From: Rhodospirillales bacterium Ga0074136
GTDB lineage: Bacteria > Pseudomonadota > Alphaproteobacteria > Acetobacterales > Acetobacteraceae
Direction: 5' to 3'
NCBI GenBank assembly: GCA_001464375.1
Contig: LNEW01000057.1
Coordinates: 1-35,318 of the forward strand
DNA: 35,318 nt
Of this stretch, positions 2,456 to 27,296 are shown piece by piece; position 1 is the first letter of the stretch, and the number at the start of each line of letters is the position of its first letter. The notes beneath the pieces were generated by a model. That model had not been told where the DNA came from, did not search any database, and saw only the letters and a program-made list of their open reading frames with translations. Position numbers and translations under genes: made by a program.

Positions 2456-3505
2456 CTACTTCCCGGTTCCATACCTCTCCTTCTTCGCCCGAGTCTGGTC
2501 GTCTGCCACGCCGTAGGCGGCAACGATCCGGGCGACCAGGGGATGCCTTACCACATCCCGTTCGGCGAATCTCGCGACTCCGATTCCGTCGACCCCTTCG
2601 AGGATGCGCAGCGCCTCCCCCAGGCCGGAGGGCTGGCCGGACGGCAGATCCACCTGGGTCGGGTCGCCGGTGATGACCATGCGCGACCCCTCTCCCATCC
2701 GCGTCAGGAACATCTTGATCTGTGCCGGCGTGGTGTTCTGGGCTTCGTCCAGGATGCAGTAGGCGTGCGCCAGGGTGCGGCCGCGCATGAAGGCCAGCGG
2801 CGCGATCTCGATCTCGCCGGCGGCGATTCGCCGGGCCACCTGTTCGCCGGGCAGCATGTCGTGCAGGGCGTCGTAGAGCGGGCGGAGATAGGGATCGACC
2901 TTCTCCTTCATGTCGCCGGGCAGGAAGCCCAGGCGTTCCCCGGCCTCGACCGCCGGGCGGGACAGCACGATCCGGTCGACCCGGCCGGTCTGCAGCAGGG
3001 CCACGCCCTGCGCCACGGCAAGGTAGGTCTTGCCGGTGCCCGCCGGACCCACGCCGAACACCATTTCGCGGCGCGCCAGCATCTCGATATAGGCGGCCTG
3101 GGCCGGGGATCGCGGGGCGATCGCGCCCTTGCGGGTGCGGATGGCGGGCAAATCGGCCAGCGGCAGGCGGGGTTCGCCCTGTTCGGCGCCGCCCTCGGCC
3201 AGGCGCATGGCGGCCTCGACCTCCGCGGTGCCCACGTGCTGGCCCTGTTCCAGGCGTTTCCACAGTGCCAGCAGCGCGGCCTCCGCCACTTCGGTCCGCC
3301 CTGCCCCGCCCGAGATGGCAATGCGGTTGCCGCGGGACGCGAGCCGCACGCCGAGCACCTGTTCGATGCGGGCCAGGTGCCGGTCGTGTTCCCCATGCAG
3401 GGCGGCCAGCAGGACGTTGTCGTCGAATTGCAGCGTGACCGATCTCTGTTCGGTCTGGCTGCGGGTCTGGGTGGCGCGGAGGGCGAGGCTGTGGGTGGCG
3501 GTCAA
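2456..3505 (-). CDS. phoH: PhoH-like ATPase
   Basis: 349 residues; cytosolic P-loop ATPase of the PhoH/YbeZ family, a partner of YbeY in RNA metabolism in many bacteria. Walker A is GPAGTGKT (about 153-160) and Walker B is ILDEAQN (about 251-257), followed by the sensor-like [13 protein letters not shown]. The N-terminal region ([16 protein letters not shown] and GNRIAISG) is the small KH-like/PIN-linked lead-in typical of YbeZ proteins. The start is TTG 3503-3505, which overlaps the miaB stop as TTGA and has GGGAG about 10 nt upstream, indicating translational coupling. Function beyond ATP binding is inferred from the family and the neighbouring ybeY. Confidence 0.94.
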
Positions 3506-4881
3506 GCGGCTGGTCTCTCCCTGGTTGTCGCGAGGACGGACGTCGGAAGAACGCCCGAGAGTGAATTGGGATGCCCGGCGGTGATCGTCACCGGCACGAC
3601 CTGCCCGGCGAGTTCCATGGGCCCGGCGAAATGCACCGGGTTCAACCAGGGCGTGCGGCCGGCCATCTGGCCGGGGTGGCGGCCGGGGCCGGTGACCAGC
3701 ACATCCGCCACCATGCCGGTGCGGGACCGGTTGAACTCGGCCTGCTGGTCGCGCAGCAGGGCCTGGATCTCGGCCAGGCGCGCATCCTTCACGGCTTCGC
3801 CGACCGGCCCGGCCATGGTCGCGGCCGGTGTGCCCGGCCGGGCGGAATACTTGAAAGAGAAGGACTGGGCGAAGCCGATGTCGCGGATCAGCGCCAGGGT
3901 GGCGGCATGGTCGGCATCGCTCTCGCCGGGATGGCCGGCGATGATGTCGGTGGACAGCGCGAGGTCCGGGCGCGCCGCGCGCAGCCGGTCGACCAGCCGG
4001 CGGTAGTCATCCGCCGTGTGGCCGCGATTCATTGCCTTCAGGATACGGTCGGACCCCGACTGCACCGGCAGATGCAGGAAGGGCATCAGCGCCGGCGTAT
4101 CGCCATGGGCGGCGACCAGGTCGTCATCCATGTCGCGCGGGTGGGAGGTGGTGTAGCGGATGCGCGCCAGGCGCGGGATCTCGGCCAGCCGCCGCGCCAG
4201 CCGCCCGAGTGTCCAGGCGTGGCCGTCCGGCCCTTCGCCATGCCAGGCATTCACGTTCTGGCCGAGCAGCGTGACCTCCCGCGCCCCGAGCGCGACCAGG
4301 CGTTCGGCCTCCGCCACCACGGCCGCGACGGGGCGGGAATATTCCGACCCGCGCGTATAGGGCACCACGCAGAAGGAACAGAACTTGTCGCAACCCTCCT
4401 GCACCGTGAGGAAGGCCGTGACCCCCTGCGGCGCGGTGGTCTCGGGCAGGTGGTCGAACTTGTCCTCGGCGGGGAAGTCGGTCTCGATCACTGCGCCGGC
4501 GGCACGCGACGCGCGCGCCACCATCTCCGGCAGCCGGTGGTAGGATTGCGGGCCGAGCACGATGTCCACCCAGGGCGCGCGGGCGGTGATCTCAGCCCCT
4601 TCGGCCTGCGCCACGCAGCCGGCCACCGCGATCACCATGTCCCCGCCGCGGGACCGCTTGGCGTCGCGCAGGCGGCCCAGGTCGGAGAACACCTTCTCGG
4701 TCGCCTTCTCCCGGATGTGGCAGGTGTTGAGGATGACCATGTCGGCCTCCTCCACCGCCTCGGTCGGCGCGTAGCCGAGCGGCGCCAGCACATCCGCCAT
4801 GCGGGCGCTGTCATAGACATTCATCTGGCACCCCCAGGTGCGGATCAGCAGGCGCTTCCGGGGGGCGGCGGTCTCGGTCAT
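3502..4881 (-). CDS. miaB: tRNA-2-methylthio-N6-dimethylallyladenosine synthase
   Basis: 459 residues; radical-SAM methylthiotransferase that converts i6A37 to ms2i6A37 in tRNAs reading UNN codons. The N-terminal UPF0004 domain supplies three cluster cysteines (C18 in WGCQMN, C54 in CHIR, C89 in AGCVAQ). The radical-SAM motif is C164-x3-C168-x2-C171 in [12 protein letters not shown]-terminal TRAM-like region (about 385-450; [12 protein letters not shown]) completes the normal architecture. Length is normal. The start ATG 4879-4881 has GGAG about 11 nt upstream. It heads the miaB-phoH-ybeY-corC-lnt series; 199 bp upstream of it carry no gene I can support. Confidence 0.96.
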
Positions 4882-5080
4882 CCGGGGTCAGGCTCCGCGT
4901 ACCCCGCCGCGTGGCGTGCGGCGAGGATCGGCGGGGGACATGCGCACCAGGGCGGTGCGGGTCAAGCGACCTTCGGTCCGAAGCGGATCGACATGGCAGG
5001 GAGCGTGGCGGGCCGCGTCGCGTCGGGTCAAGCGTCGTCTCGATGGGACGGCGCCGGTATGGCCCGCGCGCGGCGCCCCA

Positions 5081-6004
5081 TCAGCCGGCCGGGCTGCGCA
5101 GGCGCAACGGCACCACCGGGCGGTTCTGGCGCAGCAGGGCGGCACCCTCGGCCACCACCTCGCTGGTCGCCGCGGTCAGCGCCTTGCGGTCGGGGAAGAT
5201 CGCAGGGTCGGCCGGTTCGTGCAGCAGCACCGTGGCACGCGCGCCGGACCGCCGGGCGATGCGCCAGAAATGCGTGGCGATGTCCATGTCGCCATACCAG
5301 GCAAAGAAGGGCCGGTCGCGCCGGCAGGCCGGCAGGCCACCCAGGCGGTCATAGACCAGCGAAACCGGCTGCACCTGCCTGGCGTCCTGCGCGACCGACA
5401 GGAAGGAGGACCGGAACGGCAGCACCCGCGTCCCGTCGTTCGACGTGCCCTCGGGGAACAGGATGATGCTGTCGCCGGCGGCCAGGCGCTGCTGGATGTC
5501 GCCGGCCTCCTTGCCGGTGCCGGTCCGGGTGCGGCTGACGAAGACCGTGCGGCCGAGCCGCGCCACCGTGCCCACCACCGGCCAGGTGCCGACCTCCGCC
5601 TTCGAGACGAAGCCCGCCTCGATCACCGCGCCGAGCACCAGGATATCGAGCCAGGAGGAATGGTTCGACACGTACAGCACCGAGGGCGAAGCGCTGGGCG
5701 CACCCACCACCTGCACCTTGATGCCGATCAGCCGGCACAGCATGGCGTGGTAGGTCCGGGCAAAGCGCTTCGCGCCGCGCTGCGAAACCTGCAGCAGCAC
5801 CGCCTGGACCGGGATGCACAGCAGCGTCCAGAGCGCCGCGCCGGTCATGCGCCGGATCGCGCGGAAACGGCCGCCGATCGGCCGGGGCTCCATCACGTCG
5901 CCCCAGGCATCCCCGGGCAGCCAGGGGCTGAAGCGCAGCGGCTTGCGCCGGCGCAACCGGCGCGGCTTCAGCGCTTCCTCGGGCGATCGGGCGACGGCTT
6001 CCAT
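5081..6004 (-). CDS. lysophospholipid acyltransferase, PlsC family
   Basis: About 307 residues; 1-acyl-sn-glycerol-3-phosphate acyltransferase superfamily, membrane associated. Motif I NHSSWLD lies at about residues 114-120 and motif III FPEGTSNDG at about 183-191. A hydrophobic stretch (MTGAALWTLLCIPVQAVLL) near residue 60 is the likely membrane anchor. It could make phosphatidic acid, or it could be OlsA, since olsB lies about 3.2 kb upstream on the same strand and has no other acyltransferase partner beside it. I used ATG 6004; a GTG two codons upstream (6010) is an alternative, and neither has a clear ribosome site. It precedes miaB, as in many alphaproteobacteria. Confidence 0.88.
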   Translation of the reverse strand: MEAVARSPEEALKPRRLRRRKPLRFSPWLPGDAWGDVMEPRPIGGRFRAIRRMTGAALWTLLCIPVQAVLLQVSQRGAKRFARTYHAMLCRLIGIKVQVVGAPSASPSVLYVSNHSSWLDILVLGAVIEAGFVSKAEVGTWPVVGTVARLGRTVFVSRTRTGTGKEAGDIQQRLAAGDSIILFPEGTSNDGTRVLPFRSSFLSVAQDARQVQPVSLVYDRLGGLPACRRDRPFFAWYGDMDIATHFWRIARRSGARATVLLHEPADPAIFPDRKALTAATSEVVAEGAALLRQNRPVVPLRLRSPAG

Positions 6005-6075
6005 CCGCACGGGGTAGCCCGCCGATCATGGCGGGGCAATGAAGCCCCGGAGTCAAAGCCGTGAAGGCTGCGCGA

Positions 6076-10037: not shown

Positions 10038-10567
10038 GGATCCGTCCCGGCCGGGGGTCGGCGCGGCGCGGCGCGGGAGGATTCCGGTGCCGGCTTGCGG
10101 CCGAACAATTCGAGCCGCTGGCCCACCAGGTCGAAGCCGAGCCGCGCCGCCAGCCGCTTCGCCAGCGTGTCGAATTCCGCGTCGGCGAATTCGATGACGC
10201 GGCCGCTGTCGACGTCGATCAAGTGATGGTGGTGGCCGCGATCGGCCAGGTCGTAGCGCGCGCGCCCGCCGCCGAAGTCGCGCTTCTCGAGGATGCCGTT
10301 CTCCTCGAGCAGTCGCACCGTCCGGTAGACCGTCGCGATCGACACCTTGCTGTCGAGCGCGAGCGCGCGCCGATAGACGTCCTCGACATCCGGGTGGTCC
10401 TCGGCGTCGCTGAGGACGCGCGCGATCAGCCGCCGCTGCCCGGTCATCTTGAGGCCGCGCTCGATGCACAGCCTTTCGATCCGCGAGGGCGCCTCGGTCG
10501 CTGCCAGGCTCGGTCGGGTCCGGGTCTCGATCACGTGGTCAGCATCCGGCAGATGGGTGCGCCCCAT
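10034..10567 (-). CDS. fur: Fur-family metal-responsive transcriptional repressor
   Basis: About 177 residues; dimeric DNA-binding repressor responding to iron or a related metal. The N-terminal winged helix runs from RIERLCIERGLKMTGQRR, with DAEDHPDVEDVYRRA and the recognition region SIATVYRTVRLLEENG (about 76-91). The metal/dimer domain has GRARYDLADRGHHHHLIDV and RVIEFADAEFD. The C-x2-C structural zinc motifs of E. coli Fur are absent, as is common in alphaproteobacterial Fur/Mur proteins, so the metal is uncertain. ATG 10567 is my choice; TTG 10612 upstream and GTG 10534 downstream are possible. It overlaps olsB by 4 nt and follows mucR. Confidence 0.88.
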   Translation of the reverse strand: MGRTHLPDADHVIETRTRPSLAATEAPSRIERLCIERGLKMTGQRRLIARVLSDAEDHPDVEDVYRRALALDSKVSIATVYRTVRLLEENGILEKRDFGGGRARYDLADRGHHHHLIDVDSGRVIEFADAEFDTLAKRLAARLGFDLVGQRLELFGRKPAPESSRAAPRRPPAGTDP

Positions 10568-10631
10568 GCGGCGCGGGCCGGGACCATAGTCCGCCACGCG
10601 CCGCCGGGCCAATCCTGCCGTCGTCGGGCTG

Positions 10632-11060
10632 TCAGCCGCCCTTCGCCTTGGCGCGCGACCGCGGCGTGGTGCCGAGGCCGATCTTCTTGGCCAGCGAGGA
10701 ACGGTGCTTCGCGTAGTCCGGCGCCACCATGGGGTAGTCGTTCGGCAGGCCCCACCGCTCGCGATACTGTTCCGGCGAAAGGTTGTAGGAGGTCTTGAGA
10801 TGCCGCTTCAGCATCTTCAGCTTCTTCCCATCCTCGAGGCAGACGAGGTAGCCCGGTGTGATCGACTTCTTGATCGGCACGGCCGGCTGCGGGCGCTCGG
10901 GCTCCGGCGGCGGCGCGCTTCCAACACCCGACAGCGTGCGAAACACTTCCTGGATCAGGTTCGGAAGTTCCTGCGCCGGCACCGGGTTGTGCGACACATG
11001 CGCCGAGACGATCTGCGCCGTCAGGCCAAGAAGTTCGCTGCTGGGATTGGAGTCGGCCAC
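10632..11060 (-). CDS. mucR: MucR/Ros-family transcriptional regulator
   Basis: 142 residues; alphaproteobacterial prokaryotic zinc-finger-like DNA-binding protein, known in the family to control exopolysaccharide, motility and cell-surface genes. The N-terminal oligomerisation region is MADSNPSSELLGLTAQIVSA; the DNA-binding core is GYLVCLEDGKKLKMLKRHL followed by LSPEQYRERWGLPNDYPMVA. The metal positions read C74, D77, H87, with Ser91/Tyr92 where the second His should be, so classical zinc binding looks lost. I chose GTG 11060, which has AAAGGGG 8 nt upstream; an ATG at 11084 would add eight residues that include that ribosome site. It lies upstream of fur and is divergent from the TusA-like gene. 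Confidence 0.93.
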   Translation of the reverse strand: MADSNPSSELLGLTAQIVSAHVSHNPVPAQELPNLIQEVFRTLSGVGSAPPPEPERPQPAVPIKKSITPGYLVCLEDGKKLKMLKRHLKTSYNLSPEQYRERWGLPNDYPMVAPDYAKHRSSLAKKIGLGTTPRSRAKAKGG

Positions 11061-11121
11061 GATGAAGCCCCTTTGTGTTTTCAAGCCGAGCCGCTTCTAG
11101 ACCCCGGTCGCTCACGCGGCA

Positions 11122-11412
11122 ATGTTCGAAAGGATAAATTTCTTGCCATCCTTGCCTTTTCCACCAGCAAGCGAAGAACTGTCGGCGGCTTCCACCCTCG
11201 ACATCACCGCCGAGACTTGCCCGATGACCTTCGTACGGGTCCGCCTTGCGCTGGATCGATTGCCGCCGGGGGCTATTCTCGCGGTGCTGCTGAAGGGTGA
11301 TGAACCCAGGCGCAATGTGCCGCGCACCGCCGTCGAACAGGGTCACCAGGTTGTGGATCAGGCGGACCTGCCCGATGGCGTCATGCGGCTGGTGCTGCGC
11401 CGCAAGGGCTGA
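11122..11412 (+). CDS. TusA/SirA-family sulfur carrier-like protein
   Basis: 96 residues; small cytosolic protein of the TusA/SirA/YedF fold, which relays sulfur through a conserved cysteine. The motif LDITAETCPMTFVRVRLAL is family-typical, with C33 as candidate active cysteine; the usual CPxP is CPMT here. It continues with a strand-helix pattern and RNVPRTAVEQGHQVV. The first 20 residues before the fold (MFERINFLPSLPF) have a different, AT-richer character, and ATG 11122 lacks a clear ribosome site, so the true start could be later. Its 3' end overlaps the convergent rimI by 32 bp, and it is divergent from mucR with a 61-bp gap. Confidence 0.75.
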   Translation: MFERINFLPSLPFPPASEELSAASTLDITAETCPMTFVRVRLALDRLPPGAILAVLLKGDEPRRNVPRTAVEQGHQVVDQADLPDGVMRLVLRRKG

Positions 11413-11854: not shown

Positions 11855-12516
11855 CCCGGCATCGCCGGCGCGGTCACGGCCGGTGGTTCCGCATAGAGCG
11901 GCGCGGCGCCGCGCATCGCGACGCCGGCGCCCAGGCGCCGCGCGACCAAGCGTGCAAGGTCGGCGGCCGCAGGCAGGCCGGGGCATGCCTGCGCCGCGTC
12001 TCCGCGGGCGCGCAGCACGGCGGCGACCACTTCCGCCGCATCGCCCAGCACCAGCACCGGCCTTTCGGCGACGGGCAGCGCATCGATCGGCGCGACCAGC
12101 GGGACCATCACCGCCTCGCTGCCGGGCGCGAAGCGTTCCAACACCACCCGCCCGCGCCGGTTGTCGATGGCAGCCCAGACTGTGCGGTCCTGGCGCAGGC
12201 CATCGGGCAGCGCAGCGAGCAGCGCCTCGCCTGTCGTGACGCCCACGAGCGGGCGGCCGGCCCCGCGCGCGATGCCCTCGGCCAGCGCGATGGCGGCGCG
12301 CAGCCCGGTGAAGCCGCCCGGACCCACGCCCACGGCCACCGCATCCAGCGCGGCGGCAGCCAGCCCGGCACGGACCAGGACATCGCGCGCCATCGGCGGC
12401 AGCAGTGCCGGCTGGCCGCGCGGCGCCTCGGCGACCGCCGCGACCACCACCGCGCCATCCACCAGCACGGCGGCCGAACAGCGGGCAAGCGCGCCCTCGA
12501 TGGCGAGGATCCTCAT
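11851..12516 (-). CDS. tsaB: tRNA t6A threonylcarbamoyl transfer protein TsaB
   Basis: 221 residues; ASKHA-fold partner of TsaD in the complex that installs threonylcarbamoyl adenosine at A37 of tRNAs reading ANN codons. The N-terminus MRILAIEGALARCSAAVL and the signature VAVGVGPGGFTGLRAAIALA are diagnostic. The C-terminal half (VLVLGDAAEVVAAVLRARG, then PLYAEPPAVTAP) fits the usual end, where the PxYLR-like motif is PLYAEPP. Start ATG 12514-12516 has no obvious ribosome site. It is divergent from a TctC gene across 112 bp, which must hold both promoters. It is translationally coupled to rimI. Confidence 0.92.
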   Translation of the reverse strand: MRILAIEGALARCSAAVLVDGAVVVAAVAEAPRGQPALLPPMARDVLVRAGLAAAALDAVAVGVGPGGFTGLRAAIALAEGIARGAGRPLVGVTTGEALLAALPDGLRQDRTVWAAIDNRRGRVVLERFAPGSEAVMVPLVAPIDALPVAERPVLVLGDAAEVVAAVLRARGDAAQACPGLPAAADLARLVARRLGAGVAMRGAAPLYAEPPAVTAPAMPG

Positions 12517-12628
12517 GCGTGCGGCTTTACGGCACTTCCCCGGGCGGCGGAATGGATGGCTTCCACCGCCCGCGCTTCATCGCCAGGATGCCTCGCCGGG
12601 CCGCCGAGCCCGAAGGGAAGGAAACACC

Positions 12629-13597
12629 ATGACCATCACCCGCCGCGCCCTCGGCGCCGCAGCCCTGGCCGCACCCACCCTGCTCGCCGCGCGCGGCGCG
12701 GCCGCGCAGGCCGCCTTCCCGTCGCGCGCCGTGCGCATCATCGTGCCGTACACACCGGGCGGGGTCTCCGACATCACGGCGCGCCTGCTCTCCGAACCCC
12801 TCTCCGGCACCTGGGGACAGCCCGTCCCGGTCGAGAACCGCGCGGGTGCGGACGGTGTGATCGGCACCGAGGTGGTGGCGCGCGCGCCGGCGGATGGCTA
12901 CACGCTCGGCCTCGTCTCGGTCGGCCATCCGGTCAACGCCGCCTTCTACCGCCTGCCCTTCGACACCATGCGCGACTTCACCTTCGTCACGCAGACCACG
13001 GCGACGCCGCTGGTGCTGTGCGCGCCGCGCGCCTTCGCACCGAACACGCCGGCGGAGCTGGTGGACTACGCCAAGCGCAACCCGGGCGTGACCTTCGCCG
13101 GCACCGGCGGCGTGGTGCGCCTGGCCCCCGTGCTGTTCGCGCAGCGCACCGGCATCCAGCTGGAATACGTGCCTTATCGCGGTAGCACCCAGGCGCATCC
13201 GGACCTGATGGCGAACCGCGTGAACATCATGTTCGACACGGTCCCGGCGGCGCTGCCGCATATCCAGTCGGGCGCGCTGAAGGCGCTGGCCACCACGGGC
13301 GCGCGCCGCAGCCCGCAATTGCCCGACGTGCCGACCATGGCCGAAGCGCTGCTGCCGGGCTTCGAGGCAGCGACCTGGGGCATGATCATCGCCCCGGCCA
13401 ACCTGCCGCCGGCGGTGCTGGCGAAGCTCAACACCGACATCCGCGCGGCGCTGCGCAACCCGACCGTGGTGGACCGGCACAAGACGCTGGGGGCGGAGAT
13501 CGTGTCGAACACGCCCGACGAGATGCGCGCCTTCGTGCAGAGCGAGATGGAGAAGTGGGTGGCGGCGGCGCGCGCGGCGGGGATTCAGCCGCAATAG
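12629..13597 (+). CDS. TctC/Bug-type periplasmic substrate-binding receptor (copy 2)
   Basis: 322 residues; TTT-family solute receptor. The signal peptide MTITRRALGAAALAAPTLLA, ending near AAAQA, carries a twin arginine. Family landmarks are SRAVRIIVPYTPGGVSDITA, VENRAGADGVIG, ADGYTLGLVSVGHP, FAGTGGVVRLAPVLF and LEYVPYRGSTQAHPDLMANR. It ends with the two-lobe closing helices near NTPDEMRAFVQSEMEKW. ATG 12629 is preceded by GAAGGGAAGGAAACACC. It stands alone on the plus strand; the convergent amidase gene ends 103 bp later across two hairpins. Ligand unknown; pairing with the amidase is only positional. Confidence 0.93.
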   Translation: MTITRRALGAAALAAPTLLAARGAAAQAAFPSRAVRIIVPYTPGGVSDITARLLSEPLSGTWGQPVPVENRAGADGVIGTEVVARAPADGYTLGLVSVGHPVNAAFYRLPFDTMRDFTFVTQTTATPLVLCAPRAFAPNTPAELVDYAKRNPGVTFAGTGGVVRLAPVLFAQRTGIQLEYVPYRGSTQAHPDLMANRVNIMFDTVPAALPHIQSGALKALATTGARRSPQLPDVPTMAEALLPGFEAATWGMIIAPANLPPAVLAKLNTDIRAALRNPTVVDRHKTLGAEIVSNTPDEMRAFVQSEMEKWVAAARAAGIQPQ

Positions 13598-19197: not shown

Positions 19198-20241
19198 TCA
19201 ACGGGTCGGCGGGACAATCAGGCGGAGATCCGGCGAATCCCGTCCTGCCGCGGCTTCCGCCAGGTCGCGCACCAGGCGGTCGGCGATGCCGATGCGGTAG
19301 TGCTGCGGGTCCCAATAGTGGGTGTCCTCGCGCGTGATGCTGCTCGGGATCATGAAGTCCGCCAGGATCGTGCCGGGGCGGGCGCGCGCGATGGCGGCGA
19401 TGGACTCGCGGCAGGCGGCCCAGCGCAGCGCGTCCAGCGTGCCCGGCTGCGGCTGCAACGAGACATGGTAGGGCACCAGGAACAGCAGCGCGCGCGTGGA
19501 GCCCGGCAGGGCGGCGAGGCGTTGCGCCAGCAGCGCGTGCTGTGGGAAGTCGAAGGCCGGCGGGACAGCGGGGGCCGGTTCGGATGCCGGCGGCACCAGG
19601 CCGGCCGCGGCGCGCGGCGCGTCGTAGCGCGCATCGTCGGGCAGGAAATCCGCCCAGCCGTCCCGCCCGTAGCGCGGGCGCGCGAGGCCCAGCATGGCCA
19701 GCGCCTGCTTGCCGGCTTCCTCGGCGGCGAAGGGATTGAGGATCTCGGCATAGCCGCGCCACAGGTTCGCGCCATACATCCAGTCCGGGAAGGGCCGCGG
19801 TGTCAGGCGCCGCAGCGGGCCGCTTTCGCACCACACCATGTCGAGGCCCACCAGCACGTTGCGCGGCGCCGGATGGCTGCGCGTGAACAGCGACAGCAGT
19901 TGCGACTGCTCCCACGCCGTGCCGCTGTTCATCGACAGGTTGGCGAAGCGCCCGCCAAAGGCCTGATCGAGCAGCGGCGGGCGCAGCAGGCGCGACGCCG
20001 ATGTACCGATCACCACCGAATCGAAGCGGCCGTCGCGCGCCAGCATCGGGTAGGAAAAGCGCTGGTTCGTCGTGACCGTCTCGCGCGGCAGCGGCAGCGC
20101 CAGCGGCAGCATCCCCCAGGGATCGACCAGCGCGATGAAGGCATAGGCGACGACCAGCAGCGTGCCGGCGGTGCCCAGCAGCCGCCTGCCGAAGCGCGCC
20201 CAACGCGCCGGGTCCTCAGAACTGGAAGTAGATGAACTCAT
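19198..20241 (-). CDS. membrane-anchored SGNH-like (AlgJ/AlgX/DltD-type) protein
   Basis: 347 residues. One membrane segment (about 20-40, LLGTAGTLLVVAYAFIALVD) is followed by a periplasmic domain. The domain opens with VVIGTSASRLLRPPLLDQAF, where GTSASR stands at the place of the GDS nucleophile motif. It ends with THYWDPQHYRIGIADRLV, where D-x-x-H is the SGNH catalytic pattern. This makes it the expected partner of the adjacent MBOAT gene, as AlgJ/AlgX partner AlgI in alginate acetylation. ATG 20241 lies 26 nt inside the end of the MBOAT gene, so the two are coupled. Catalytic identity is inferred from motifs; the substrate is unknown. Confidence 0.75.
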   Translation of the reverse strand: MSSSTSSSEDPARWARFGRRLLGTAGTLLVVAYAFIALVDPWGMLPLALPLPRETVTTNQRFSYPMLARDGRFDSVVIGTSASRLLRPPLLDQAFGGRFANLSMNSGTAWEQSQLLSLFTRSHPAPRNVLVGLDMVWCESGPLRRLTPRPFPDWMYGANLWRGYAEILNPFAAEEAGKQALAMLGLARPRYGRDGWADFLPDDARYDAPRAAAGLVPPASEPAPAVPPAFDFPQHALLAQRLAALPGSTRALLFLVPYHVSLQPQPGTLDALRWAACRESIAAIARARPGTILADFMIPSSITREDTHYWDPQHYRIGIADRLVRDLAEAAAGRDSPDLRLIVPPTR

Positions 20242-21598
20242 TCGGGATCCGACCGCCGATCAGCAGCAGCATCAGGAACAGCACGACGCCCGCCGCGGCC
20301 CCGACCCAGGGGATGGGCCGCAGGCGTTCCAGCGCGAAGCCTTGCGAGGTCGGCCCCAGCAGCGCCGCCAGACAGCCGGCGATCATCACGACCGTTTGGG
20401 TCGTGTCCATCACCACAGCGCCACGCACCAGCGGCAGCCCGGCCAGCGCCTCGAACATCCGCGCGGCACTCGGGAAGTCGGGCGCACGGAACAGCACCCA
20501 GCCCGCCATCACGAACAGCAGCGTCAGCACCCAGCCCGCCACCCAGGGCAGGCGCAGCCCAGTGCGGCCCCAGGCCGCGTTCAGTGCGAGCGCGACGCCG
20601 TGCATCCCGCCCCAGACCACGAAGGTCCAGGCCGCGCCATGCCACAGCCCGGCCAGCAGCATCGTGACCACCACGTTGACCGCCTGGCGCGCCGCACCCG
20701 ACCGGTTGCCGCCCAGCGGCACGTACAGGTAGTCGCGCAGGAAGCGCGACAGCGTCATGTGCCAACGCCGCCAGAACTCGCGGATCGATGCCGCGCGATA
20801 GGGCGCATCGAAATTCACCGGCAGCCGCAGCCCGAACATCAGCGCGAGCCCCAACGCCATGTCGGAATAGCCCGAGAAGTCGAAATAGATCTGCAGCGTG
20901 TAGGCCAGCGTGCCGAGCCACGCGTCGGACGCGTTGAGCGCCTGCCCCGCCGCCGCGCGCGCGAAGGCGGCATCCGCCACCGGCGCCAGCGTATCGGCGA
21001 TGCCCACCTTCTTCACCAGGCCGATGGTGAACAGCACGAAGCCGCGCGCCAGGTTCTCCGCCATCTCGGGCCGGCGCGGGTCGAGCGCGAATTGCCAGAT
21101 CACCTCGTTGTGGCGCACCAACGGACCAGCGACCAGCTGCGGGAAGAAGCAGACGAACAGGAAGAAATCCGACAGCGAATAGGTCTTGGCCTGCCCGCGC
21201 TTGAGGTCGACCAGGTAGGACACCTTCTGGAACACGTAGAAGGACACGCCGAGCGGCAGGATGATGTTCCAGGCCTCGTGCCGCCCACCCAGCGCCCAGG
21301 CGACGTTGTCGGCGATGAAGTTGGCGTATTTCACCCAGGCCAGCACGCCCAGGTTCAGCACGATGCCGAGATCAGCCCACCAGCCGCCGGGCTTCGCCGC
21401 ATGCGCGCGCGCCACCAGCCAATTGACCAGCGTGAGCCCCACCAGCACCGGCACGAAGCGCACATCCCAGAAGGCGTAGAAGGCGAGCGACGCCACCACC
21501 ACCCACGCCTGGCGCAGCCCGCGCGACGGCGCGTAGTACCAGCCCGCCAGGGCAAGCGGCAGCAGGCCGAGGATCAGCGCCTGGGAATTGAACAGCAT
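20216..21598 (-). CDS. MBOAT-family membrane O-acyltransferase (AlgI-like)
   Basis: 460 residues, about eleven membrane helices; transfers acetyl or other acyl groups across the inner membrane to an exported sugar or polymer. The hallmark cytosolic segment REFWRRWHMTLSRFLRDY, continuing LYVPLGGNR, spans about 273-299, and the catalytic histidine is H320 in LLAGLWHGAAWTF. Others are LPLGVSFYVFQKVSYLVD, FFPQLVAGPLVRH and QIYFDFSGYSDMALGLA. The length and motif order match AlgI and DltB relatives. It ends overlapping the SGNH-like gene and starts 6 bp after the AsmA-like stop. No alginate or cellulose genes are in view, so the acceptor is open. Confidence 0.95.
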   Translation of the reverse strand: MLFNSQALILGLLPLALAGWYYAPSRGLRQAWVVVASLAFYAFWDVRFVPVLVGLTLVNWLVARAHAAKPGGWWADLGIVLNLGVLAWVKYANFIADNVAWALGGRHEAWNIILPLGVSFYVFQKVSYLVDLKRGQAKTYSLSDFFLFVCFFPQLVAGPLVRHNEVIWQFALDPRRPEMAENLARGFVLFTIGLVKKVGIADTLAPVADAAFARAAAGQALNASDAWLGTLAYTLQIYFDFSGYSDMALGLALMFGLRLPVNFDAPYRAASIREFWRRWHMTLSRFLRDYLYVPLGGNRSGAARQAVNVVVTMLLAGLWHGAAWTFVVWGGMHGVALALNAAWGRTGLRLPWVAGWVLTLLFVMAGWVLFRAPDFPSAARMFEALAGLPLVRGAVVMDTTQTVVMIAGCLAALLGPTSQGFALERLRPIPWVGAAAGVVLFLMLLLIGGRIPNEFIYFQF

Positions 21599-21604
21599 CG
21601 ATCG

Positions 21605-23455
21605 TCAGCCCGGGCCCTGCCCCCGGAAGCAGGCATTGCGCTGCGCGACGGCGCGCAGGCTGGCCGGCAGCGGCGCCATCGCGTTGCGCGCCATGCGCTC
21701 GCGCGCCGCCCGCGACCACTCCGCCGGCGCGATCGACGGGTTGTCGAAGGACCCATGGACCTGCACGGGGATATCCAGGGCAAAGAAATCCGTCGTGTCG
21801 CTCTGGCTGCCGATGATGAGATCCAGCGTCTCACGGTTCAGGTCGAAGGTCGCGATGCCGCTGATGGTGCCGGTGCCCGCGCGGATGCGCAGCGGCGCCG
21901 CGCGCCCCACACCGGCATTGATGTCCACCGCCGCGAGCAGGCAGGTGATCGGCGTGGTCCCGCGCGAGGTGCGGAACAGCGCGCGCACGTCGGTCGAGGC
22001 CATCTCGATCACGTCCCGGTCGATGGTCCCGCCGGTCATGCCGACCACGGCCGAGATGCGCGCCTGGCTGGTCGCCGCATTCACGCTCGCCGCCTCGCCG
22101 CCGGCGACGATATCGCCGGAAATCCGCCCGGTCACCGGCACAGCGCGCAGGCCGAAGGCGCGGCGGAGTTGATCGATGTCGCCCTCGCGCAGCGCGATCT
22201 CCGCGGCCACGCGCGCGCCGCGCGGCGCGGGCAGCAATTCGGCGGACCCGGTCATGTGTGCGCCGAAGGCCGTCACCGCCGCCTCGTGCAGCGTGATGCG
22301 CCCTGGTGCCACCTCCAGCCGCGCCCGCGCATCGGTGGCGCGCAGCCGGGCGTAGGTCAGCGCGCGCGTGGAGGCCTCGATGTCCATCAGCGGGTCGGGC
22401 AGCGCCGGCACCACCAGCGGGATGTCGGCATCGCCACGGCCCTGCGCGCCGTTATCGGGGCCGAGCAGGCGGTTCACGTCGAGACGCGCGACATCGAGCC
22501 GTGCGACGATGCGGTCGGGTTGTCCTGCCGCGCCCTCGTTGAGTTCGAGCAGCGCCGCGGTCAGCGCCGCACCGTCGAGCGTGCCGGTCGCATCCCGCAG
22601 TCGCCACAGGTCGCCCTGCCGCACGAAATGCCCGGAGAGGTCCACCGGCACCTCCGGCCCCGCACCCTGCCCCGCCCCGGCCATCTCGAGGATGGCGCGC
22701 GGCGTGGAGGCCGCGATGGTGAGCGTCCCGTCCAGCCCATCGACATTCAGCGGATCCGTGCCCGTGCCCTCGAACAGCATGGCGGTGTCCTGCGCCGTGG
22801 CGCGCAGCCGCATCGGGAAGGGCGTGCCGGCCTCGCGCAGCTGCGCGAAGCTGCCAAGCCCGCCTTCCAGCACCGCCGGCACCGCGTTGTAGCTGCCCTC
22901 GACGCGCAGGGCGGCGGGTGCGGCGGCATCGGCGGCGGTCAGTGTCGCGGTATCGAGCCGCGTGGTCAGCCGCGCCCCGCTGGTGGTGCGGAACACGACT
23001 TCGCTGCCGGTGATGCGCAGGTCGTTCACGATCGGCAGGCCGCTGCGATCCGCCGGCGTGGCCGGGCGCGGCCCGAAATGCCAGTTGGCGCGTCGGTCCG
23101 CCGCGCGCTCCAGCAGCAACGCGAAGCCCTCCACCTCCAGGCGCCGCACGACGATGCCGCCGCCGAGCAGCGAGAACAGGTCGATTTGTGCCTCGGCGCG
23201 CGCCAGTTCCATCATGGCCGGCGCGCTGCCGCCCTCGATGTTGTCAAGGCGCGCGCCGTTCAGCACGACGCCGACCACGCGCCCTGGCGTGACGCGCAGG
23301 CTCTCGATGGTCACGCTGCGCCCGAGCGATGCGCTGGCGCGCGCCGCGACCAGCGGCGCCAGGTCGAAGCGCGGCAGCACCACCAAAACGAGCCCCACCG
23401 CCAGCACCGCAAGCGCCAGTATCACGCCGATGATCAGCTTGCCGCGACGGCCCAT
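21605..23455 (-). CDS. AsmA-family protein
   Basis: 616 residues; inner-membrane anchored periplasmic protein of the AsmA/TamB group, implicated in phospholipid transport and outer-membrane biogenesis. One N-terminal helix (about 6-27, KLIIGVILALAVLAVGLVLV) is followed by the AsmA start VAARASASLGRSVTIESLRV and VVLNGARLDN, then many beta-strand repeats. The C-terminal half has DGLDGTLTIAASTPRAILEM and later LNRETLDLIIGSQSDTTDFF with IPVQVHGSFDNPSI, the usual AsmA end. ATG 23455 has GGGAG 9 nt upstream; an upstream in-frame start to 23551 is Arg-rich and unlikely. It heads the AsmA-MBOAT-SGNH run. Confidence 0.92.
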   Translation of the reverse strand: MGRRGKLIIGVILALAVLAVGLVLVVLPRFDLAPLVAARASASLGRSVTIESLRVTPGRVVGVVLNGARLDNIEGGSAPAMMELARAEAQIDLFSLLGGGIVVRRLEVEGFALLLERAADRRANWHFGPRPATPADRSGLPIVNDLRITGSEVVFRTTSGARLTTRLDTATLTAADAAAPAALRVEGSYNAVPAVLEGGLGSFAQLREAGTPFPMRLRATAQDTAMLFEGTGTDPLNVDGLDGTLTIAASTPRAILEMAGAGQGAGPEVPVDLSGHFVRQGDLWRLRDATGTLDGAALTAALLELNEGAAGQPDRIVARLDVARLDVNRLLGPDNGAQGRGDADIPLVVPALPDPLMDIEASTRALTYARLRATDARARLEVAPGRITLHEAAVTAFGAHMTGSAELLPAPRGARVAAEIALREGDIDQLRRAFGLRAVPVTGRISGDIVAGGEAASVNAATSQARISAVVGMTGGTIDRDVIEMASTDVRALFRTSRGTTPITCLLAAVDINAGVGRAAPLRIRAGTGTISGIATFDLNRETLDLIIGSQSDTTDFFALDIPVQVHGSFDNPSIAPAEWSRAARERMARNAMAPLPASLRAVAQRNACFRGQGPG

Positions 23456-23572
23456 CCGCCTGTGCTCCCGCGAGGCCCCTGCCCTCGAACGCGCGGCGCG
23501 CCGTCGCGTTGCCCGGTTCGGGCGCGGCAGCGTCCGCGCCGCGCCGCCCATACACCAGCCGGGTGCCCGGGG

Positions 23573-24565
23573 CTATTCCGCCACCAGGTTCAGCCGGCGG
23601 ATCAGCGGCGCCCAGCGTTCCCCGTCGCGCACCGCGCGGGCGGCGAAGACCTCGGGCGGGTGCGGGTCGGCCGGGTCGGCGCCGACGCGGGCATAGGCGG
23701 CGCGCACGCGTTCATCCCCCAGCGCTTCCTGCAGGGCGGCGTTGAGCCGCGCGACGATCTCGGGCGGCGTGCGCGCCGGCACGGCCAGGCCGAAATAGGT
23801 CGAGGCTTCGAAATTCGGGATGGTGGCGCTCATGGGCGGCACGCCGGGCCATTCGGCGCGTGGGCCGGGCGTGGTCACGGCCACCGCGCGCACGCTCTCG
23901 GTCCGGCGCAGCGCCTCGCCTTCCGGCAGGCCGAGGCAACGCGCCTGCACCCGCCCGGCGATCAGGTCGGTCATGGCGTTCGTGGTCTGGCGATAAGGCA
24001 CGTGCACCATGTCGAGGTTCAGCCGCGCGCCGACATCCTCCATGATGAGGTGCGTGATCGCCCCCACGCCGGCCGAGGCATAGTTGAACCTTCCCGGATT
24101 GGCGCGGATCCATGCCACCACCTCGGTGAAGTCGCGCCCGGGGATCGAGTTGTGCACGATCAGCAGGTTCGAGGTGGTGCAGAACATGCCGACAGGGGTG
24201 AAGTCGCGCGCCGACTCATAGCTGAGGTTGCGATACAGCAGCGCGTTCAGCCCGCTGTTCGTGCCCATGGTCGCGACCAGCACGGTGTAGCCATCGGCGG
24301 GCGCCCGCGCGACAGCCTCGGCCGCCATGTTGCCCGCACCGCCGGGCCGATTGTCCGAGAGCACCGGCTGGCCAAGTCGCTGTGACAACGCCTCGGCCGT
24401 GACGCGGGAGACGATGTCGGTCTGCCCCCCGCCGCCAAAGGGAATCACCAGGCGGATCGGCCGTTCCGGCCAGGCGGCGTGTGCGCTGCGCGGCGCGGCC
24501 AGCAGCGCGGCCGTGCCGCCGAACATGAGGCTGCGGCGCGACGCGCCGATGCGGGCAATGGTCAT
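23573..24565 (-). CDS. TctC/Bug-type periplasmic substrate-binding receptor (copy 3)
   Basis: 330 residues; TTT-family receptor. The signal peptide MTIARIGASRRSLMFGGTAA ends near AHA; SRRSLMF resembles a twin-arginine motif. Family landmarks are WPERPIRLVIPFGGGGQTDI, SDNRPGGAGNMAAEA, ADGYTVLVATMGTNSGLN, FNYASAGVGAITHLIMEDVG and DMVHVPYRQTTNAMTDLIAG. Length is normal. It lies 76 bp downstream of the AMP-ligase fusion gene on the same strand, with the AsmA-like gene following. No transporter membrane subunits are nearby. Ligand unknown. Confidence 0.93.
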   Translation of the reverse strand: MTIARIGASRRSLMFGGTAALLAAPRSAHAAWPERPIRLVIPFGGGGQTDIVSRVTAEALSQRLGQPVLSDNRPGGAGNMAAEAVARAPADGYTVLVATMGTNSGLNALLYRNLSYESARDFTPVGMFCTTSNLLIVHNSIPGRDFTEVVAWIRANPGRFNYASAGVGAITHLIMEDVGARLNLDMVHVPYRQTTNAMTDLIAGRVQARCLGLPEGEALRRTESVRAVAVTTPGPRAEWPGVPPMSATIPNFEASTYFGLAVPARTPPEIVARLNAALQEALGDERVRAAYARVGADPADPHPPEVFAARAVRDGERWAPLIRRLNLVAE

Positions 24566-24641: not shown

Positions 24642-27296
24642 TCAGTCCGCTGCCGCAGGCGCCTGCGCGGTCGCGACGACCCGCCCGCGCAGGGCCTCCG
24701 CCATGTGCTCCGCCCGCTGCCGAGGGTCCGCCGCGTCGCTGGCCAGCGCCGCGACCTTCACCGGCGCGCCGAAGGCGATCCGCAACGGATGCCGGCGCGG
24801 CAGGCGGGCATCGCGCGGCATCGCCTCGAAGGCGCCGGCGATGTGCGCGGGGATCACGGTGACCTCGTTCATCCCGTCCAGCGCCAGGCCTATGCCAGGC
24901 AGGAAGCGCTGCAACTGCCCATCCGGCGATCGCCAGGATTCGGGGAACCACACCAGCCCATCGCCGCGCGCCAGGACCGCGCGCGCCATGGCAATCGCCT
25001 GGCCCGGCGCGCGCTCCTCCACCGGGAATACCTGGAAGGTGCGACTGAAGGCGCGTGCCGCACGGTTGGCGAACAGCCGCTCCGCCGCGCCGGACCACCA
25101 CAGCCGCCGCGCCGCATGGAACGGCAGCGCCGCGGCAATCAGGCCAGGGTCGAGGTCACTCACATGGTTGGCGACGATGATGAAGCCGCCTGTGCGCGGC
25201 ACCGCATCGGCGCCGGTGGCGCCGAGGTCGAACATCGCCCGCCCGATGCCGCGCGCCAGCGCCCAGCCGGCGACGCGCAGCGGGAAGACCAGCGGCGAGG
25301 GCGGCGCGGTGGCCGCCGCCACCTCGGCGGCCAGCACCGCCGGGTCGCGCGCGGGCGGCGCCGGCGCGCCATCGGTCGCGCGCAGCAGCAGCGCGCGCAG
25401 GCTCGCCATGTCGGCCATCTCGTCCTCGGTCAGGCGCAGGCCGATCCGCGCTTCGATCTCCATCGCCAGCGACATCCATTCCAGGCTGTCGATGCCGAGG
25501 TCGAGCGACGGGCTGGCATCCGGCGCCACCGGCTTGCCGGGATAGCGCGCCTTCAGGATCTCCCACACCTCGCGCGCGCCCGGCATGGCGACCAGCGCGG
25601 CATCGGTCTCGCTGAGCGGCGCCGCGGGCTGGGTCGTGCGGCCGGCCAGCAGGTCGTCGTACAGCGCGGGCAACAGGAAGCGCTGCACCTTGCCCAGCCG
25701 GGTGCGCGGCAGAGGCTCGCGCGCGAGAACATAGCCCGCGAGCCGCTGGTAGGATGGCAGGTCCTGCGCCGCGGCGGTCAGCGCGACGCGCAGCACATCC
25801 TCCGGCCGCGCATTGCCGGCACCGCGCAGCGCCGCGGCATCCGGCAGCACCACCGCGACCAGCGCGCCGGCGCGTTCCAGCACCGCGATCTCCTTCACGG
25901 CCGGATGCACGCCATAGGCGGCCTCGACCTCCTCCGGCATGACGTTCTTGCCGCCGCCCAGCACCAGCATTTCCTTGCTGCGCCCGGTCACGTGCAGGAA
26001 CCCGTCGGTGTCGAGCCGCCCCAGGTCGCCGCTGCGGAACCAGCCATCCGCCGTGAAGGCGGCGGCATTGGCCTCCGGGTTGTCGCGATAGCCGTCGAAC
26101 ACGTTCGGACCACGCAGTTCGATCTCGCCGATGCCCAACGCATCGGGTGACGCGATGCGCGCCTGCGTGCCGGCGGCGATCGGCCGGCCTTCCGACCCCA
26201 CGCGCTGCGCGGCCGGCGTGTTGCCGGTGAACAACGATGCGGTCTCCGCCAGGCCGTAGCCGCTGGCCACGCGCCAGCCCAGCGCCTCCAGCATCCAGGT
26301 GGACTCGGCATCCAGCTTGGCACCGCCCGAGACCATCAACCGCAGATCCGGCGCCATCTGCGCGTGCAGCGTGCCGAACAGCCGCCGCCCGATATCGAGC
26401 CCGCCCTTGCGCAGCGCGGTGGCCACTTCCAGCAGCCCGGCGAACACCAGCCGCGCCGCCCGCCCGCGCGACGCGACGCGCGCCTGCAAGCCGGCCAGCA
26501 GTGCCACATACAGCCGCGGCACGCCGACCATGATGGTGGCGCGCCCCGACTTCAGCGCCTGCACCAGCAATGGGCCGGTCACCGCCTCCGGCAGGATGAT
26601 GGTCGCCCCTGCGGCGATCGGCGTCATCAGCCCGACCAGGAACGGATAGACATGGTGCAGCGGCAGCGGCACCAGCATCCGGTCGCCGCTGCCGATCAGC
26701 CCCTTTGCCAGCACGCCCGCCAGGTTCGCGGTCAGGTTCGCGTGGGTCAGGGTGAACAGCTTCGGTGCGCCGGTGGTGCCGGATGTCGCGACGATCAGCG
26801 CGGGATCATCCGGCGATGGCACCGGCAGCGCGGTCGGCGCATCGGCGCGCAGCGCGCGCCACCCATCGGCGTCATCGGGGCGGTCCACCAGCACGATGCG
26901 CACACCCTCGCGCGCCTGGAGCTCCGCCGCATGGGCCGCGGAGGCGAAGACCCAGCGGCACCCGGCACCGGCGATGATCGCCTGCGCCGTCGCCGTCTCC
27001 GTCAGGTCGTCGATCGCCATGGGCAGCGCGCCAGTCGCGCCGAGGGCCAGGCGCACCACGATCCAGTCGGGCGAATTGGGCGCATGCAGCGCGACGGGCT
27101 CGCCCGGCGCCATCCCGGCCGCGGCAAGCCCGCAGGCCAGCAGCCGGGCCTGCTGTCCCAGCGCGGCCGCCGGCCATGGCGTGGCGGCCTCCCCGTGCAT
27201 CGCCAGGATGCCCGGTGCATCGCCGCGCGCCTCCAGCGCCGCGATCAGGCGCAGCGGCGTCCAACACCCGTCATCGCCGCGCGGCGTCGTGCCCAT
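24642..27296 (-). CDS. fused AMP-dependent ligase / acyl-carrier domain / PlsC acyltransferase
   Basis: 884 residues with three units. (1) An adenylate-forming ligase, about 1-540: LIVATSGTTGAPK (172-179 core), SGYGLAETASLF, DGWFRSGDLGRLDTDGFLHV and LPRTRLGKVQRF. (2) A carrier domain, about 570-640: LDLGIDSLEW with S604 as phosphopantetheine site. (3) A PlsC domain, about 660-870: NHVSDLD (710-716) and FPESWRSPDG, where the usual FPEG is FPES. It could activate a fatty acid, load it on its own carrier and transfer it to a lysolipid. Aas has ligase and acyltransferase but in the reverse order and without a carrier. ATG 27296 has GGGGAAG 6 nt upstream. It is divergent from the cold-shock gene. 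Confidence 0.9.
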   Translation of the reverse strand: MGTTPRGDDGCWTPLRLIAALEARGDAPGILAMHGEAATPWPAAALGQQARLLACGLAAAGMAPGEPVALHAPNSPDWIVVRLALGATGALPMAIDDLTETATAQAIIAGAGCRWVFASAAHAAELQAREGVRIVLVDRPDDADGWRALRADAPTALPVPSPDDPALIVATSGTTGAPKLFTLTHANLTANLAGVLAKGLIGSGDRMLVPLPLHHVYPFLVGLMTPIAAGATIILPEAVTGPLLVQALKSGRATIMVGVPRLYVALLAGLQARVASRGRAARLVFAGLLEVATALRKGGLDIGRRLFGTLHAQMAPDLRLMVSGGAKLDAESTWMLEALGWRVASGYGLAETASLFTGNTPAAQRVGSEGRPIAAGTQARIASPDALGIGEIELRGPNVFDGYRDNPEANAAAFTADGWFRSGDLGRLDTDGFLHVTGRSKEMLVLGGGKNVMPEEVEAAYGVHPAVKEIAVLERAGALVAVVLPDAAALRGAGNARPEDVLRVALTAAAQDLPSYQRLAGYVLAREPLPRTRLGKVQRFLLPALYDDLLAGRTTQPAAPLSETDAALVAMPGAREVWEILKARYPGKPVAPDASPSLDLGIDSLEWMSLAMEIEARIGLRLTEDEMADMASLRALLLRATDGAPAPPARDPAVLAAEVAAATAPPSPLVFPLRVAGWALARGIGRAMFDLGATGADAVPRTGGFIIVANHVSDLDPGLIAAALPFHAARRLWWSGAAERLFANRAARAFSRTFQVFPVEERAPGQAIAMARAVLARGDGLVWFPESWRSPDGQLQRFLPGIGLALDGMNEVTVIPAHIAGAFEAMPRDARLPRRHPLRIAFGAPVKVAALASDAADPRQRAEHMAEALRGRVVATAQAPAAAD

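Follow-up and report, generated by a model that had tools for sequence, protein, structure and literature searches.

A gene for an 884-amino-acid protein, in which an adenylate-forming ligase, an acyl carrier and a PlsC-type acyltransferase follow one another on a single polypeptide, was identified in Rhodospirillales bacterium Ga0074136 (contig LNEW01000057.1, positions 1 to 35,318; this whole stretch of 35,318 nucleotides is referred to as the window). Judged by its sequence, the protein belongs with the reductase-less ElbD-like proteins, and is neither a variant of Aas nor a new architecture. We consider it probable that the protein acts as a reductase-less ElbD-type enzyme, which would use its ligase, internal carrier and PlsC domain to attach a fatty acid to a lysoglycerolipid. 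The gene and its domains were located as follows:

24642..27296, minus strand: gene of the three-domain protein, 884 aa (open frame with ATG at 27296 and stop at 24642; homologues of equal extent)
26088..27164, minus strand: AMP-binding (adenylate-forming ligase) domain, residues 45-403 (Pfam PF00501, 200.9 bits, cut-off 29.9)
25689..25931, minus strand: ligase C-terminal subdomain AMP-binding_C, residues 456-536, including K536 (Pfam PF13193, 26.6 bits, cut-off 24.5)
25389..25541, minus strand: acyl carrier PP-binding (phosphopantetheine attachment) domain, residues 586-636 (Pfam PF00550, 28.2 bits, cut-off 20.8)
25485..25487, minus strand: codon of the carrier serine S604 in the DS motif (S in 42 of 42 homologue frames)
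24843..25217, minus strand: PlsC-type acyltransferase domain, residues 694-818 (Pfam PF01553, 44.2 bits, cut-off 23; match to the solved structure 5kym)
25149..25169, minus strand: NHX4D motif, here NHVSDLD, residues 710-716 (N, H and D in 42 of 42 frames)
24936..24947, minus strand: FPES motif, residues 784-787 (E in 42 of 42 frames; fourth position varies)

The minus-strand frame 27296..24642 was found by ORF translation to be unbroken, with no internal stop; the plus-strand translation of 24642..27296 is interrupted by an internal stop and is not the 884-aa protein. The initial annotation had placed the gene at the correct coordinates and left its strand unstated. It had also read a ligase, a GIDSLEW carrier site with S604 and a PlsC domain in that order, and this reading was confirmed by Pfam, as all four domains scored above cut-off in the order AMP-binding, AMP-binding_C, PP-binding and Acyltransferase. 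The carrier segment, which had been left for comparison with PP-binding profiles, was likewise matched (28.2 bits against a cut-off of 20.8), and its serine lies in the context LDLGIDSLEW. K536 is presumably the catalytic A10 lysine of the ligase. A NAD_binding_4 reductase domain was absent from the protein in the Pfam search at E-values up to 1.

The three-domain enzyme is real, intact and conserved. A same-genus relative is 75% identical across residues 7-878, and the ligase, carrier and acyltransferase were found in the same order in all 42 homologue frames, which come from 40 sources with the window included. This set was selected on a match to both ligase and acyltransferase; the carrier was not a criterion, yet it occurs in every frame (one frame, L150, is cut at its start by the contig). 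When the frames were aligned, S604, N710, H711, D716, E786 and K536 were identical in 42 of 42, while the residue after FPE was serine in 14, glycine in 23, alanine in 3 and glutamate in 2. The replacement of FPEG by FPES, to which the initial annotation had drawn attention, is present, but as a within-family variant that implies no special reaction; its candidacy as a functional novelty was ruled out because serine occupies this position in 14 of 42 frames. Ratios of dN/dS, obtained by a simple counting method from one pair (the window gene and the same-genus relative), were 0.27 (ligase), 0.26 (carrier) and 0.30 (acyltransferase), compared with 0.53 and 0.73 for the two linkers. By this one species pair, all three domains are under purifying selection, and the carrier, constrained as much as the catalytic domains, does not look like a relic.

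Fold searches were performed with a predicted model of mean pLDDT 79.6 and pTM 0.55; a single-sequence structure model was set aside at pLDDT 37.4. The top fold matches of the ligase included malonyl-CoA, feruloyl-CoA and aryl-acid adenylating ligases. By sequence, the acyltransferase part weakly matched a solved 1-acyl-sn-glycerol-3-phosphate acyltransferase (5kym, E 2.1e-6). The ligase and carrier together matched the adenylation-carrier fusions EntE-EntB (3rg2, 4iz6) and McyG A-PCP (4r0m) over more than 660 alignment columns; since the rmsd was 11-14, only the sequence of domains agrees and not their placement. These nonribosomal peptide synthetase (NRPS) modules have in common with the 884-aa protein an adenylation domain followed by its own carrier, but are without a PlsC domain. 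Their substrates are aryl or amino acids.

The order of the three domains is not unprecedented, as ElbD has it after a reductase. The available text of the review PMC9131029 describes Myxococcus ElbD as an N-terminal reductase-like domain followed by ligase, carrier and acyltransferase, a layout that also appears in the portions available of PMC11948995 and PMC9426513. According to the former source, (i) the ligase and carrier activities of ElbD were confirmed in vitro; (ii) acyltransferase activity was undetected with the purified protein; (iii) ElbD is required for most of the ether lipid in Myxococcus; and (iv) some bacteria in other phyla have homologues similar to ElbD, almost all of which are without the reductase (PMC9131029, citing Lorenzen 2014). 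The 884-aa protein thus has in common with ElbD and ElbD-type proteins a ligase, carrier and PlsC-type acyltransferase in the same order on one chain, and differs from M. xanthus ElbD, compared here through its description in the available part of PMC9131029, in that the latter has the extra N-terminal reductase and a link to ether lipids. With the reductase-less homologues it would share all three domains and their order, by inference from that description (PMC9131029), and no difference from them was found. The initial annotation had left room for the architecture being already characterised with a known product; this applies to ElbD, but with an extra domain, whereas no biochemical study of the reductase-less form was found among the titles and abstract beginnings listed in searches of the open-licence literature, or is mentioned in the available text of PMC9131029.

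Proteins of the ElbD layout were also recovered among the relatives. L022 and L023 carry an extra N-terminal NAD_binding_4 domain (173.2 and 147.5 bits, respectively). The L022 protein (1,614 residues) was matched at E <= 1e-100 by 29 of the 41 genomes in the family sample of G501, a MAG whose record bears the title Myxococcales bacterium; in 17 of these 29 a single match spans from residue 7-40 to 1609, and in G540 it covers the reductase part alone. All nine ElbD-type frames examined (L163-L171) have the ligase, the carrier with its serine and the acyltransferase, L171 being cut by the contig end before the reductase. In G501 itself the ElbD-type sequence is split between two contig ends, on C122 and C87 (L171, L162), with the reductase on one and the rest on the other; the two matches overlap by about 150 query residues, and both an assembly break and two genes are possible.

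Phylogenetic analysis of the ligase was performed with two sets of sequences. With 117 rows, 36 of the 40 reductase-less proteins and both reductase-bearing proteins formed a group (SH-aLRT 90) that excluded Aas and the 68 stand-alone ligases. With 77 rows, in which more ElbD-type proteins and Aas were included, 47 of the 51 fused proteins grouped at a support of 86, the 11 ElbD-type proteins were monophyletic at 100, and Aas, with three rows, stood apart on a long branch. Four deep rows (Uhrbacteria, Saccharibacteria and two Acidobacteria) fell outside the fused group, so the fusion may have a second origin. A single clade of 46 of the 51 rows, these 46 having been chosen after the tree was built, was neither rejected nor proven by the AU test (p 0.444). 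A phylogeny of the PlsC part had been proposed in the initial annotation; the acyltransferase-domain tree was built, but its branching was too poorly resolved to be informative. The ligase results, with moderate support, point to a likely kinship with the reductase-bearing ElbD-type proteins.

The distribution of the fused protein was examined in genome samples that include the window's genome: 9 of 120 genomes of the family matched at E <= 1e-100, and 20 of 385 genomes of the class at E <= 1e-70. Further relatives were found on a Rubrobacter plasmid and in Fusobacterium and Ilyobacter records. Among the best 80 of at least 595 confirmed relatives (one genome per species), nine encode all three domains within a single frame; the names of their records are Alphaproteobacteria, Bacteroidaceae, Bradymonadaceae, Proteobacteria, Saccharibacteria, Clostridiales, Uhrbacteria and Acidobacteria (two). 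For the remaining 71 of these 80, ligase and acyltransferase were not detected together in any one frame. One of the 71, L028, may be a broken copy of a fused gene, and five stretches (L024, L076, L092, L093 and L095) have a separate acyltransferase-like frame in the same stretch as a stand-alone ligase, perhaps as an unfused pair. Two copies of the three-domain gene occur in tandem on an Ilyobacter plasmid (L019, 9608-14772) and near each other in G302 (L142, 7828-14922), hinting at divided substrates. A sequence related to most of the protein (26% over 86%) was detected in an 8.5-kb record named "Bacteriophage sp." (MT836834.1), which may be a piece of bacterial DNA named as a phage, and the 2.1-Mb Fusobacterium record NZ_CP084075.1 (L018), listed as a plasmid, looks from its size like a mislabelled chromosome. 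The window's genome (93% complete) has no second frame joining ligase and acyltransferase, and one phosphopantetheinyl-transferase family match was found in it.

The neighbourhood of the gene was examined in the window and in its relatives. Two features of the window were considered:

19198-23551: block encoding a 347-aa protein with no Pfam match, an O-acyltransferase of the MBOAT family (20216-21598) and a protein of the AsmA family
12161-13597 and 23573-24565: two TctC-type solute receptor genes

In the same-genus relative L105, AsmA-family and MBOAT genes come immediately after the three-domain gene, in its orientation, together with a 354-codon frame that belongs to no known family. This AsmA-MBOAT block was kept near the gene in L105 alone and was absent from 38 of the 39 relatives' stretches compared. 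In the window, the second TctC gene (23573-24565) separates the three-domain gene from the AsmA gene; it is missing at this place in L105, and looks to have been inserted in the window or lost in L105. A scan of the 20 window frames revealed neither TctA nor TctB. AsmA proteins have a role in phospholipid transport, and the AsmA-MBOAT context weakly points to the envelope, as a genus-level hint. Some relatives have other neighbours in common among themselves. When 30 neighbour proteins of relatives were scanned, a partial set picked from the nearest or recurrent frames, they were mostly not lipid genes, several being related to thiamine, protein repair, RNA or transport, and none of the possibly lipid-related neighbours in this set recurs widely.

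The possibly lipid-related neighbours lie in individual relatives. An Atg22-type MFS transporter, possibly a lipid or fatty-acid transporter, lies on the same strand at about 1 kb or less from the gene in L017 (15062-16480), L141 (5323-6639) and L146 (11382-12749). An enoyl-CoA hydratase is encoded just upstream of the three-domain gene in L154 (9615-10451), and in L151 the end of the three-domain gene is overlapped by a VTT-domain protein, which we take to be DedA-like (10254-11267). In L106 (9727-10386) and L107 (6686-7510), a HAD-type hydrolase comes immediately after the gene or overlaps it; the elb operon of Myxococcus also includes a HAD-type protein, ElbB, by the available account in PMC9131029.

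Taken from the families to which the domains belong, the three reaction steps of the favored reductase-less ElbD-type enzyme would be as follows: (i) the ligase would use ATP to convert a free fatty acid into its acyl-adenylate; (ii) the acyl group would be loaded onto the phosphopantetheine carried by S604 in the same polypeptide; and (iii) the acyltransferase would transfer it to a free hydroxyl of a lysoglycerolipid. Against step (iii) speaks the undetected acyltransferase activity of purified ElbD, the best-studied relative. The acceptor, the weakest point of this scheme, would most likely be a lysophospholipid or lysophosphatidate at the inner membrane, and the reaction would serve salvage or remodelling, as that of Aas does, with the difference that the carrier is built in. 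Activation, tethering and transfer would then most likely be independent of the cell's ACP, as the initial annotation had suggested; no support was found for its idea of an unusual acyl chain. Five acyltransferase-family matches were found in the window's genome, including a separate one in the window at 5081-6025. Because the genome has these matches, general phosphatidate synthesis need not depend on the three-domain gene, which fits a task in salvage or remodelling. The separate PlsC-family acyltransferase at 5081-6025 may be the ordinary PlsC of the genome; it adjoins a UPF0004/radical SAM/TRAM protein, probably MiaB (3502-6025 for both).

The 884-aa protein resembles Aas (with LplT) in uniting the activation of fatty acids and a PlsC-type acyl transfer on one chain. 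The initial annotation was right to contrast the two: in Aas, the transferase comes first and the synthetase second, and soluble holo-ACP is used (available text of PMC11416262; E. coli aas), so that Aas has the opposite domain order and no internal carrier. Its ligase domain is also the one on the long separate branch of the 77-row tree. Replacement of Aas by the three-domain protein would predict mutual exclusion of the two. In the class sample, an Aas-model match was found in 2 of the 20 carriers of the three-domain gene compared with about 4 expected (76 of 385 genomes); 18 of 20 carriers and 291 of 365 non-carriers were without such a match, and no mutual exclusion beyond chance was seen in these 385 genomes. 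Six of the 76 Aas-model matches cover the ligase part alone, and just 36 genomes pass the model cut-off. The E. coli LplT query had no match in the window's genome, in a search without a positive control.

It is conceivable, though rather unlikely, that the protein works as Aas does, its ligase and acyltransferase mainly using soluble ACP or CoA while the internal carrier is accessory or concentrates acyl groups. PlsC enzymes in general accept acyl-ACP or acyl-CoA. The best NCBIfam ligase matches were acyl-CoA ligases, and two Aas models were among the 25 matches listed, both far below cut-off (PRK08633 with 149.3 of 1221 bits and PRK06814 with 137.4 of 1349). An accessory carrier is at odds with the serine kept in 42 of 42 frames and with a carrier dN/dS as low as that of the catalytic domains, and a likeness to Aas is at odds with the distance of the ligase from Aas in the trees and with the reversed domain order.

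Acylation of a specialised, non-glycerolipid acceptor, such as a carotenoid, hopanoid, amino acid or sugar, appears improbable: no biosynthetic cluster was found in the 20 window frames or the 30 scanned neighbour proteins of relatives, and the sole solved acyltransferase matched is an acylglycerol-phosphate enzyme (5kym). Such a role would agree with the variable motif III (S, G, A or E), with the weakness of the sequence match to a known PlsC (E 2.1e-6) and with the term NRPS-like given to ElbD homologues in cluster mining (available portion of PMC9426513).

Slightly less probable still is a role in which the protein, like ElbD, would take part in the synthesis of alkyl or vinyl ether lipids, while another gene provides the reductase. 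The kinship with ElbD-type proteins and the need for ElbD in forming most Myxococcus ether lipid (as described in PMC9131029) would favor it, but the 884-aa protein has no reductase domain, and the six NAD_binding_4 matches in the window's genome reach 21-48 bits in a family that matches 14 of 14 control genomes, so that they speak neither for nor against a separate reductase. No CarF-type desaturase match was obtained in the genome, in a search without a positive control. In addition, the available text of PMC11868695, in which ElbD is used as a marker, reports ElbD homologues in Pontiella with no ether lipids detected. Finally, the joining of separate genes by frameshift or misassembly, a concern of the initial annotation, has a negligible probability and is ruled out by the unbroken frame without internal stop and by 41 other frames of the same order in other assemblies, nothing having been found in favor of an artefact.

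The reading of the protein as a reductase-less ElbD-type enzyme may extend to the family. We tentatively propose, as an idea that may well prove too broad, that ElbD-like proteins without a reductase form a widespread, self-contained system for the salvage of fatty acids and lysolipids, a functional counterpart of Aas-LplT that has a common ancestry with the ether-lipid enzyme ElbD and occurs in bacteria that are mostly without Aas. If the mechanism holds, fatty-acid activation would be coupled to lipid acylation without a shared ACP pool in the taxa in which the family was found here, namely Alphaproteobacteria, Actinomycetota, Fusobacteriota, Bacteroidota, Bacillota and Acidobacteriota. The role of many ElbD-like genes would then be explained, and ElbD matches in metagenomes would not always be evidence of ether lipids.
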